From positions 1-17,069 of the forward strand of contig CAMNNR010000010.1 of assembly GCA_946545675.1 (NCBI GenBank): a stretch of DNA of 17,069 bases. The letters run 5' to 3'. This DNA is from an uncultured Thermoplasmata archaeon (GTDB lineage: Archaea > Thermoplasmatota > Thermoplasmata > Methanomassiliicoccales > Methanomethylophilaceae). The position numbers and the translations under genes are program-made. The notes beneath the pieces were generated by a model. It made no database searches, had not been told where the DNA came from, and worked only from the letters and a program-made list of their open reading frames with translations. Positions 8,365 through 11,137 of this stretch are shown piece by piece (position 1 is the first letter of the stretch; each line of letters opens with the position of its first letter).

Positions 8365-8907
8365 TCATTCTTGATCTTCACCAACTTCGGGATGGCGGGG
8401 ACGGGAAACCGACTCGATATAATCGTTCTGAATCCTTTCGATCTCGGCACCGTCCTTCGCTGCACGGTACTCGTCCAACAGCGCCTTGTTCATGGTCACG
8501 AAGGTCTGCGCCCAGTTGAAACGGGGCATGAAGAGTTCGGCCTGTTCATCCTGCCCGAGCACCAGCAGGGCGGCCAACACGGCCTCCGCACTGTTGAGCC
8601 TCCACGGCTTACCGAAGTTGATGGGGTTGGCGGCCACGAAATACGGGAGCTTCCTCGCCTTCTCCCCGCGGATGTGCGGGCATTCGTCGATGTGTGCCCA
8701 AGTGAGGTCGAGGACCACGATTCCGCGGTGAGCGTATTTCAGATCGGCAGGACTCAGCGTCTCCTTGCCGAAAGGCGACAGCACGATGCAACCCGGCGGT
8801 ATCCTGTTCAGGGGAAGTTCCTTGGCCAGTCCGAACTTCTCCATACGTTTGGAAGTGCACTTCTTGGGGTCGCACTGATCCTTGTCGTAGACGATGATCG
8901 GGATCAT
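8365..8907 (-). CDS. tsr3: Tsr3, 16S rRNA 3-amino-3-carboxypropyl transferase (DUF367 family)
   Basis: The 180-residue product matches Tsr3 (with RLI-like N terminus), a SPOUT-fold enzyme. It transfers the aminocarboxypropyl group of S-adenosylmethionine to a uridine of the small-subunit rRNA P-site hairpin. Landmarks are 'DPKKCTSKRMEKFG' near the N terminus, 'GCIVLSPFGKETLSP' , 'VLDLTWAH' (71-76 region), 'KLPYFVAANPINFGKPWRLNSAEA' spread over about residues 86-109, and a helical C-terminal half. The ATG overlaps the stop of the phosphatase-like gene as ATGA. It ends 134 bp before the mcm operon and is probably co-transcribed with the upstream partner only. Length is normal for the archaeal family. 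Confidence 0.93.
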   Translation of the reverse strand: MIPIIVYDKDQCDPKKCTSKRMEKFGLAKELPLNRIPPGCIVLSPFGKETLSPADLKYAHRGIVVLDLTWAHIDECPHIRGEKARKLPYFVAANPINFGKPWRLNSAEAVLAALLVLGQDEQAELFMPRFNWAQTFVTMNKALLDEYRAAKDGAEIERIQNDYIESVSRPRHPEVGEDQE

Positions 8908-9392
8908 GCAACGACCAAACTTGAGAGCTTCTCGGGGTCAGCGAGGTTCTCCTTGACCCATTCGCGGACACGGTCCGCCATGTCACAGAAGCACTTGTCC
9001 AGTTCCACATCGTCTGTGGCTGTGAACTCGCTGCGGGTCCCCATGTCGGCCAGGATCTGTTTGCCTCCCCAAGGGGAATCGGCATGGAGATCGTCGAAGA
9101 TCCCTTTCTCGGTCCAGATTATGAAATCGTATTCGGCATCCTCAGGCAGATGCTTGGTGTCCTTGAAATCCTTGGAGACCATGTTGCGGAGGTCGTCTCC
9201 CCTGCGATACATGGCGGAGAGCAGGTCGCAATCGATGATGTCCTTCGTTGGTCCGGCGCTGTATGCCTCGTACATATCGGAATACAGCTGCTTGGTGTAG
9301 AACTCAGCGAGCTGCGAGGATGCGTTGTTCTGACTATCCACGAAAAGGATGCGGACTTTCTTCGCAACCTTGGATTTCTTCATAATGGCCAT
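8904..9392 (-). CDS. Low-molecular-weight tyrosine phosphatase/ArsC-fold protein with degenerate active site
   Basis: The fold signature is ILFVDSQNNASSQLAEF (residues 15-31), which aligns with the family P-loop FVC-x-x-N-x-x-R-S-Q-x-AE. The nucleophilic Cys is Asp19 and the invariant Arg is Ser25; Asn22, Ser26, Gln27 and Glu30 are kept. Later segments ('AYSAGP', 'DFIIWTEKG', 'DMADRVREWVKENL') fit the LMW-PTP/ArsC layout. A phosphatase or arsenate reductase needs the Cys, so this is probably a binding or regulatory pseudoenzyme. I chose the ATG at 9392 (162 residues). A TTG start at 9413 is also open, but a TATA-like box lies 26 bp before 9392 and would make the mRNA leaderless from there. 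It overlaps tsr3 by 4 nt. Confidence 0.85.
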   Translation of the reverse strand: MAIMKKSKVAKKVRILFVDSQNNASSQLAEFYTKQLYSDMYEAYSAGPTKDIIDCDLLSAMYRRGDDLRNMVSKDFKDTKHLPEDAEYDFIIWTEKGIFDDLHADSPWGGKQILADMGTRSEFTATDDVELDKCFCDMADRVREWVKENLADPEKLSSLVVA

Positions 9393-9414
9393 GCGTTCGC
9401 ATGGTCTTGCCAAT

Positions 9415-9452: not shown

Positions 9453-9460
9453 TGTTTTAT
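9453..9460 (+). promoter_or_regulatory. TATA box for the C/D box sRNA
   Basis: TGTTTTAT on the plus strand is centred about 22-25 bp before the predicted 5' end of the sRNA terminal stem (9478). This is the expected spacing for an independently transcribed sRNA gene. Confidence 0.5.
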
Positions 9461-9477
9461 GCAAGCATCCGATTGTC

Positions 9478-9546
9478 ATATGCTGCGATGATGAAGATTT
9501 TTTCGAGCTGATCACTGATGAGTGACGGGCGAGCTGAGCGGCATAT
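9478..9546 (+). ncRNA. C/D box guide sRNA, predicted to direct 2'-O-methylation of 16S rRNA C1402
   Basis: All four boxes occur in order with archaeal spacing: C box ATGATGA (9488-9494), 13-nt guide, D' CTGA (9508-9511), 4-nt spacer, C' TGATGA (9516-9521), 12-nt guide, D CTGA (9534-9537). The flanks ATATGCTGC (9478-9486) and GCGGCATAT (9538-9546) pair as a 9-bp terminal stem with one G-U, closing the kink-turn. The D guide (9522-9533) contains GTGACGGGCG, complementary to the universal 16S segment CGCCCGUCAC (E. coli 1400-1409; 1409 varies in archaea). The fifth base before box D (9529) pairs with C1402, the predicted methylation site. The D' guide (9495-9507) has no target I recognise. It has its own TATA-like box. 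Confidence 0.88.
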
Positions 9547-9573
9547 CTCAAACTCAGATTCAGAGAGATGTTG

Positions 9574-9766
9574 TATGAAGTGCAGTCCCCTTGAGCCACC
9601 GGGAAAGACCCGGCTCAGCCCAACAGCTTCAGCATCCTTCCGAATGCGGCTGACGACGCTACCTGAATGGAGGTGGCACCGCACAGCATCCCCGCATCCC
9701 CGTCCTTCATGCCGACCTTTTCGCGAGCTCAGATAGGTCGGGGCACCCCAACTGCACCACGTCATA
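9574..9766. ncRNA. Candidate structured RNA of unknown class and strand
   Basis: About 190 nt without a convincing ORF can fold as one closed domain. TATGA (9574-9578) pairs with TCATA (9762-9766), and GTGCAGT (9580-9586) pairs with ACTGCAC (9751-9757). Inside are hairpin A (9591-9597 with 9612-9618, then 9601-9603 with 9609-9611), hairpin B (9632-9637 with 9642-9647) and hairpin C (9712-9718 with 9735-9741, perfect 7 bp). Read on the minus strand, hairpin B becomes a 6-bp stem (with one G-U) closed by a GGAA (GNRA) tetraloop, favouring minus-strand transcription. Hairpin A fits the plus strand slightly better. I find no SRP, RNase P, tRNA or riboswitch core motifs. It could also be the leader or trailer of a neighbouring RNA. 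Confidence 0.45.
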
Positions 9767-9816
9767 ATCTGTTCATTTTCGGATAGTTTCAAAGGGACAA
9801 AGGCCCACTCATCTTC

Positions 9817-9824
9817 AAATATCT
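9817..9824 (+). promoter_or_regulatory. TATA-like promoter of the hexulose-phosphate synthase fusion gene
   Basis: AAATATCT is centred about 25 bp before the ATG at 9845, so the mRNA is probably leaderless. No Shine-Dalgarno sequence precedes the ATG. Confidence 0.5.
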
Positions 9825-9844
9825 CGGATTGTCTACGATGAAAC

Positions 9845-11137
9845 ATGGATCCCGTTTTACAGGTTGCCCTGGACATGATGCAGTTGAAACGCAGTATAGG
9901 TATTGCGAAAGAAGCTGTCGAAGGCGGGGCTGACTGGGTCGAAGTAGGTACCCCCCTCATCAAGAGCGAGGGCGCCGAGGCGGTGCGTACAATCAGGAAG
10001 ACATTCCCCGGTCACAAGATCATAGCAGATACGAAGACCATGGATACTGGGGCCTTTGAGGTCGAGATTATGGCCAAGGCAGGTGCCGATATCGTTACCG
10101 TTCTCGGCCTTGCCGACGATGCTACCATTTCCGAAGCTGTCCAATCCGGGAGGAAATACGGTGCCGAGGTCATGGTGGACATGATCAATGTTCCAGACAA
10201 GGTGAAACGTGCCAAAGAGATAGATAAACTGGGCGTAGGTTACATCTGCCTCCACATGGGTATCGACTCACAGATGAGGGGCGAGGATGCCCCCGTAGAC
10301 ATACTCAGGAAGATCGTGTCCGAGGTCAGTACCCCTGTGGCAGTCGCCGGCGGCATAACCGCTGAAACCGCCAAAGAATACGTCGAAGCAGGTGCTTACG
10401 ACATCATCGTGGGCGGAGGTATCACAAAGACCGATGATATCAAATCCGCAGCGGCAAACCTCAAGAAGGCCATGAAAGGCGCCAAAGTGGATACAATCGT
10501 AGCGAAGAAATACACCGAGGATGACCTGTTCGAGGCATTCTCCAAAGTATCCACCTGCAACATCTCGGATGCATACCATAAGAAAGGAGTGATCTTCGGT
10601 CTCCACCCCTACATCAAACACGGTGCGAGACTGGTCGGCCGTGCACTGACCGTGCAGACCTGTAACGGCGACTGGGCGAAACCCGTGGAGGCCATCGACC
10701 GTGCAAAACCAGGCGATGTCATAGTCATCGATGTGGGCGGCGCACCTATGGCCGTATGGGGCGAACTGGCAGCCAACTCCGCTCAGATGATGGGTGTCAG
10801 GGGAGTGGTCATCGACGGTGCCATAAGGGACATCGACGACATCCAGGATCTGGACTTCCCCGCTTTCGCGAGGACCGCGGTACCGTGTGCCGGAGAAGCG
10901 AAAGGATACGGCGGAATCGGAATGGAGATCACCGTTGGCGGACAGAGGGTCCGCACCGGCGACTGGATCATCGGCGACGAGAGCGGACTCATCGTCGTTC
11001 CCAAAGAAGAGGCCGTCGAGGTCGCCAACCGGGCGCTTGACGTCCACGAACACGAGACCCGCACCCGTGCTGAGATCAGAAGGGGATCCACCCTCTCGAA
11101 GGTCAACGAGATCAGCAAGTGGGAACCCGTTCAATAA
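9845..11137 (+). CDS. hps: 3-hexulose-6-phosphate synthase fused to an RraA-like domain
   Basis: Residues 1 to about 210 are an orotidine-phosphate-decarboxylase-fold hexulose-6-phosphate synthase. It has VALDM at the start, the catalytic D62-x-K64-x2-D67 in IADTKTMDTGAFE, the 'GADIVTVLG' strand and the phosphate-binding 'VAGGI' (167-171) and 'VGGGIT' (189-194). The enzyme joins formaldehyde to ribulose 5-phosphate or, in reverse, releases formaldehyde while making ribulose 5-phosphate; archaea without the oxidative pentose phosphate pathway use the reverse reaction. Residues from about 225 to 430 are an RraA/class II pyruvate-aldolase-like domain with 'WGELAANSA' (305-313) and the R328-D329 pair in 'DGAIRDIDD'. 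The second domain's activity is unknown. It is a single-gene unit ending at the shared hairpin with htpX. Confidence 0.92.
   Translation: MDPVLQVALDMMQLKRSIGIAKEAVEGGADWVEVGTPLIKSEGAEAVRTIRKTFPGHKIIADTKTMDTGAFEVEIMAKAGADIVTVLGLADDATISEAVQSGRKYGAEVMVDMINVPDKVKRAKEIDKLGVGYICLHMGIDSQMRGEDAPVDILRKIVSEVSTPVAVAGGITAETAKEYVEAGAYDIIVGGGITKTDDIKSAAANLKKAMKGAKVDTIVAKKYTEDDLFEAFSKVSTCNISDAYHKKGVIFGLHPYIKHGARLVGRALTVQTCNGDWAKPVEAIDRAKPGDVIVIDVGGAPMAVWGELAANSAQMMGVRGVVIDGAIRDIDDIQDLDFPAFARTAVPCAGEAKGYGGIGMEITVGGQRVRTGDWIIGDESGLIVVPKEEAVEVANRALDVHEHETRTRAEIRRGSTLSKVNEISKWEPVQ

Follow-up and report, generated by a model that had tools for sequence, protein, structure and literature searches.

A predicted C/D box sRNA for 2'-O-methylation of 16S C1402, conserved across the archaeal order Methanomassiliicoccales

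The stretch of DNA analysed here (the window, 17,069 nt, from a gut-type methanogen) was predicted to carry, at 9478-9546 on the forward strand, the gene of a C/D box sRNA whose D guide directs fibrillarin to 2'-O-methylate residue C1402 of 16S rRNA, a reading to which we give a probability of about 0.92. It is based on the anatomy of the element, the guide and box spacing conserved in relatives, the target in the relatives' 16S, genes for two of the three particle proteins, and the lack of RsmI or RsmH matches over the family cut-offs. The kind of guide itself is already known; what is added here is the order-wide conservation of the Cm1402 guide and its linkage to tsr3, both unreported in the literature searched, in a search aimed at the guide and its site.

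Judging from established C/D sRNP biochemistry, the sRNA transcribed from 9478-9546 would bind L7Ae, Nop5 and fibrillarin, its D guide (9523-9531) would base-pair with 16S positions 1400-1408, and fibrillarin would 2'-O-methylate C1402, which lies beside the P-site codon. The expected product would be Cm1402 without the bacterial N4-methyl group. Bacteria use a protein enzyme for the 2'-O-methylation of C1402, whereas guided C/D particles place this mark in eukaryotes and, as predicted, in at least some archaea. A guide spread across an order of methanogens, together with the lack of RsmI and RsmH matches over cut-off, would make a clear comparative case of one mark made by different machinery.

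Anatomy of the sRNA gene

The terminal (kink-turn) stem is formed by a 5' arm at 9478-9486 and a 3' arm at 9538-9546, the latter placed by the stem alignment of relatives. Between the arms lie a C box ATGATGA (9488-9494), also seen in the relatives' alignment, a D' guide region AGATTTTTTCGAG of 13 nt (9495-9507), a D' box CTGA (9508-9511), a C' box CTGATGA (9515-9521), a D guide GTGACGGGCGAG of 12 nt (9522-9533) and a D box CTGA (9534-9537), all on the forward strand and read off the sequence. The D'-C' spacer is 3 nt. An earlier note made from the letters of the window had described four boxes, correct spacings and a 9-bp terminal stem, and re-reading confirmed them, the nine pairs being eight Watson-Crick pairs and one T-G. 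The features that define the archaeal C/D class were found together: an RUGAUGA C box, a CUGA D box and a terminal stem (with a presumed kink-turn), internal D' and C' boxes with a short spacer, and a D-box-adjacent guide complementary to rRNA with its target at N+5 in the 16S of relatives.

The inner five pairs of the stem (5' arm 9482-9486) are kept in relatives and were unpaired in just one cell of their alignment. Two of these pairs had changed on both sides, from A-U to G-C in six rows and from C-G to U-A in two. The outer four pairs of the window stem, often broken in relatives, are not kept. When all nine pairs were tested together, 1 of 500 shuffles reached the observed covariation score, but 119 of 500 reached the number of pairs with two-sided changes.

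An Rfam search, which the earlier note had proposed as a check, matched two archaeal C/D families over 9478-9546, both below gathering: sR1 (RF01152) with 33.2 bits against a gathering score of 45 (E = 3.2e-5), and snoPyro_CD (RF00095) with 29.9 bits against 45. Both families share the archaeal C/D architecture with the element and align over its full length, but besides the sub-gathering scores their guide letters differ in the alignments. No family named sR12 or SNORD43 was listed when the window was scanned at E ≤ 1. A mechanically called ORF on the reverse strand (9457-9963) runs across the sRNA; it was not taken as a gene because all the tblastn stretches listed, 8 of 45, lie antisense to hps or the sRNA. 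A promoter and terminator scan, with models that exclude archaeal promoters, returned nothing useful, and no match was obtained when a plasmid collection was searched with the window.

Guide regions and their targets

Since no 16S match was found in the window's own MAG (70.6% complete), the 16S sequences of relatives were used for the target checks. Six congeners have CGCCCGUCAA at the target site of their 16S, so the window guide would pair with it over nine uninterrupted Watson-Crick pairs, which in the congener G045 join 9523-9531 to 1400-1408. The earlier note had counted about ten paired nucleotides, which is right for the E. coli sequence but not for the congeners. The nucleotide five back from the D box (N+5) is G9529, and it stands opposite the residue that is C1402 in E. 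coli numbering, in agreement with the published site alignment. The earlier claim that the N+5 rule lands on this residue was borne out in the congeners' 16S, and the sRNA can be placed, at the level of prediction, in the functional class of C1402 guides (sR12/SNORD43).

Across the order, 30 of 147 genomes were searched for 16S and 29 gave matches. The target CGCCCGTCAA is present at all 25 loci, from 24 genomes, that extend to the site, the remaining 5 of 30 loci being partial. The guide pairs over 10 positions in congeners with TTGACGGGCG, over 9 including one G-U in genomes of family f5, and over 8 in the other genera tested. Sites in 16S were ranked in 20 genomes, each with its own guide, by a score of our own (pairs minus 0.7 per G-U, no mismatch allowed), and C1402 was the top N+5-compatible site in 18 of them. 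Another, G-U-rich site slightly outscored it in two f5 genomes (G010 and G015). The best site for the guide in 23S of G045 has 8 pairs with one G-U.

The D' guides of the window's family are T-rich, variable and 11-14 nt long, and with such varying length the N+5 relation would be broken for any one target. Scanning the 16S and 23S of relatives with the D' guides of 11 genomes revealed no site common to the family. The tRNA scan covered 76 ARAGORN tRNAs at 70 loci, with all 44 tRNA matches of the congener G037 and 25 of the 28 of the window's own genome, and used 36 distinct D' guides parsed from 78 of the 81 loci. The best tRNA match of the window's D' guide was the anticodon loop of tRNA-Ser(CGA) of G037 (8 bp, N+5 at A36). 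This tRNA was rejected as an unsupported D' target, with at least 8 bp (8-9 bp) reached by just 9 of the 36 guides and N+5 falling on A36, which is not known as a usual site. In the rRNAs and tRNAs scanned, the D' guide thus has no target that can be recognised, in line with the earlier note. Because no conserved D' target was found, the D' half is probably there mainly to supply the second K-loop motif that assembly requires in this sRNA family.

Families other than the window's carry different D' guides. In G001 (locus L001) the D' guide has a 10-bp match to the genome's own 16S. Guides of the AACCCAGC type (L002, L003, L069) match part of the 23S that is found in many relatives, over 9 bp in the case of AAACCCAGCA, the form carried by L002 and L003. 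As the D' guides differ between lineages and the D guide is constant, the D guide is the conserved half. Outside the order, seven loci of families f8 and f9 (L297-L302 and L305) were seen to have a different, TTCAGCCTTAG-like D' guide beside the same Cm1402 guide.

Conservation, machinery and alternative readings

A strict pattern (C' box, 0-6 nt, GACGGGCG, 2 nt, CTGA) was found in 97 of the 147 genomes of the order, representing 22 of 30 genera and 56 of the 74 genomes with a completeness of 90% or more and a contamination of 5% or less. The same pattern written backwards, used as the control, was found in 0 of 147, which argues that the sRNA pattern is not due to chance. A covariance model was made from 28 copies hand-picked for spread among 81 pattern-bearing loci (63 distinct) and applied to the other 50 genomes. 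Matches at E ≤ 2.2e-6 were obtained in 21 of these, bringing the total to 118 of 147; in 18 of the 39 genomes with a covariance-model match it was weak only (best E 0.009 to 0.76), and these were excluded from the count. Eight of the 21 keep GACGGGCG, and the other 13, all of family f5, carry GATGGGCG, which replaces the C-G pair opposite G1405 by U-G. Some f5 copies also have a degenerate D box (CCGA, CGGA). By family, copies were present in 85 of 102 (f1), 1 of 1 (f2), 4 of 6 (f3), 1 of 1 (f4), 13 of 15 (f5) and 14 of 22 (f6) genomes. By our own count, 70 of the 74 good-quality genomes have a copy, and the 29 of 147 genomes in which no convincing copy was found include the other four.

In the wider phylum the pattern was present in 58 of 389 genomes, 13 of these being among the 332 outside the order. 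Two outside-order matches (L173 and L174, in G425 and G353) lack a C/D' half and are probably due to chance; they were left aside. When loci were fetched with the neighbouring hps protein instead of the RNA, 33 of 80 bore the sRNA pattern, in each case in the orientation of hps; the 47 without it include many that come from outside the order or are cut short. It has been reported that archaeal C/D guides evolve fast and have a variable genomic context (PMC7994747, in the part available), so a guide and neighbourhood conserved order-wide stand out.

Fibrillarin exceeded its cut-off in 132 and Nop in 134 of the 147 genomes. Both were found in the window's own genome, where the fibrillarin and Nop5 genes are on contigs C66 and C23. 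Four genomes (G027 to G030) gave neither fibrillarin nor Nop matches, and one of them, G027, nevertheless has the guide gene. The fibrillarin frame of G119 (contig C3, 418956-419594) was observed to contain one internal TGA. For RsmI (TIGR00096), 0 of 147 order genomes had a match over the cut-off and the window's own genome had no match, with 10 of 14 control genomes positive; weak matches in four order genomes reached at most 24.3 bits against a cut-off of 167.9. RsmH was likewise over its cut-off in 0 of 147 order genomes and positive in 10 of 14 controls, with weak sub-cut-off matches in three order genomes. The two bacterial enzymes act on the same residue as the sRNA would (2'-O and N4), but they are stand-alone proteins.

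The claim of the earlier note that the sRNA would be an RNA-guided route to the 2'-O-methyl mark made by bacteria is supported as a prediction by the guide, the fibrillarin and Nop genes and the lack of RsmI and RsmH matches over cut-off, but its novelty was overstated, because RNA-guided methylation of the equivalent of C1402 has already been described (sR12, snR70/SNORD43/AtU43). The archaeal sR12 of Pyrococcus and Sulfolobus, also a C/D sRNA, has been predicted to direct 2'-O-methylation to the counterpart of the yeast snR70 site, i.e. C1402 (PMC3511168, in the part available); the window sRNA differs in its methanogen-order host and is likened to sR12 by predicted target, not by sequence. 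In eukaryotes, the snoRNAs SNORD43, snR70 and AtU43 are likewise C/D guides, directed at the 18S residues that correspond to E. coli C1402, namely yeast Cm1639, human Cm1703 and Arabidopsis Cm1645, the last guided by AtU43 (PMC11542601), and Cm1376 of the Pyrococcus abyssi 30S subunit was aligned with m4Cm1402, Cm1639 and Cm1703 (PMC7005279). Whether SNORD43 and archaeal sR12 are homologous or convergent was left undecided in the accessible part of the published comparison (PMC3511168). Some archaea may lack the mark, since the Haloferax volcanii table, as far as available, has no entry at the C1402 position (PMC2584109). Helix 44 methylation predictions are sparse in seven archaea in a survey whose main text, in the part available, does not mention C1402 (PMC4644070), and PMC5539422, to the extent of its accessible text, concerns other sRNAs. 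No report on a Methanomassiliicoccales box sRNA was found in a literature search with most subscription journals outside its range.

The sRNA could be real and bind the decoding strand, and yet act mainly as an RNA chaperone or a checkpoint of helix 44 maturation, with methylation incidental or absent. The pairing does span 1400-1408 of the decoding region, and the available text of PMC7994747 mentions archaeal C/D sRNAs with RNA chaperone activity. However, N+5 falls on C1402 because guide and D box are 2 nt apart, and this was the sole spacing in all 33 pattern-bearing hps loci although spacers of 1-3 nt were allowed, and Cm was reported at the equivalent residue of P. abyssi (PMC7005279), so we regard a chiefly chaperone-like role as quite unlikely.

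It is very unlikely that the main target is another RNA, reached through the D' guide or a second site of the D guide, with the C1402 complementarity secondary. Such a role could draw on the anticodon-loop matches of some D' guides to tRNA-Ser(CGA) and on a runner-up 16S site in the congeners G037 and G045, with 10 pairs including two G-U; but the former are confined to a quarter of the guides and put N+5 on A36, and the latter was among the top three sites in 2 of the 5 congeners tested and in 0 of the 15 other genomes. Any single 69-nt element could also be fortuitous, the more so when its own genome is one incomplete MAG, but given the outcome of the reversed control and the four intact boxes of the window copy, a chance match or a decayed, functionless gene is extremely improbable. 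Guided methylation of C1402 is the reading we prefer.

The tsr3 neighbourhood

On the reverse strand at 8365-8907, the window contains a conserved neighbour of the sRNA, a Tsr3 homologue (Fer4_RLI and Ribo_biogen_C; DUF367) predicted to be the 16S h31 aminocarboxypropyltransferase. Of the 147 order genomes 113 gave a tsr3 match, as did 108 of the 118 with the sRNA. The two lie on one contig in 92 genomes, with match starts at most 5 kb apart in 88 of these, across all six families, and 289 nt apart in G001. Of the remaining pairs, four share a contig but are more than 5 kb apart and 16 are split between two contigs; in G081 neither gene of such a pair is near a contig end. In genus g14 the sRNA is present in all six genomes (G119-G124), but none of them gave a tsr3 match. 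Outside the order, tsr3 was near the sRNA in 0 of 11 loci (2-5 kb on each side, less at contig or stretch ends), so the linkage looks like an order-level feature.

Tsr3 and Nep1 produce the hypermodified P-site nucleotide of h31 (PMC11698992, in the part available). It is possible, though we hold this only tentatively, that in this order tsr3 and the gene of the Cm1402 guide make up a conserved locus for P-site modification, with an RNA guide for C1402 and a protein enzyme for the h31 residue equivalent to 966, perhaps coordinating both marks in late 30S maturation. A functional link is opposed by the g14 genomes, the distant and split pairs and the loci outside the order, and the linkage may be no more than synteny shared within a single order. 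In P. abyssi, moreover, Cm1376 is present, yet no Tsr3 was found there, as far as the available text of PMC7005279 goes. The link would offer a simple test case for coordinated P-site modification.

The tsr3 gene is overlapped by an ArsC-like ORF (8904-9413, reverse strand) that is divergent from the sRNA gene. It had no Pfam match, and its NCBIfam matches, weak ones to arsenate reductase, were all sub-cut-off. Homologues near the sRNA are mostly in family-1 loci, with a few weak matches elsewhere. Judged against the C-X5-R motif, the catalytic Cys and Arg of this ArsC/LMW-phosphatase-like ORF look replaced (FVDSQNNASSQ). Further genes of the window encode MCM, PriS and FtsY, which is consistent with an archaeon.

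Downstream of the sRNA and on the same strand lies hps (9845-11137), a hexulose-6-phosphate synthase / RraA-like fusion gene. In 25 of the 33 hps loci (our own count) no more than 200 nt separate the start of the sRNA pattern from the downstream hps gene; in the window the distance is 329 nt. Most archaeal C/D sRNAs are processed from a longer transcript, according to the available part of PMC7994747, and the position of the sRNA close upstream of hps on the same strand is compatible with such processing.
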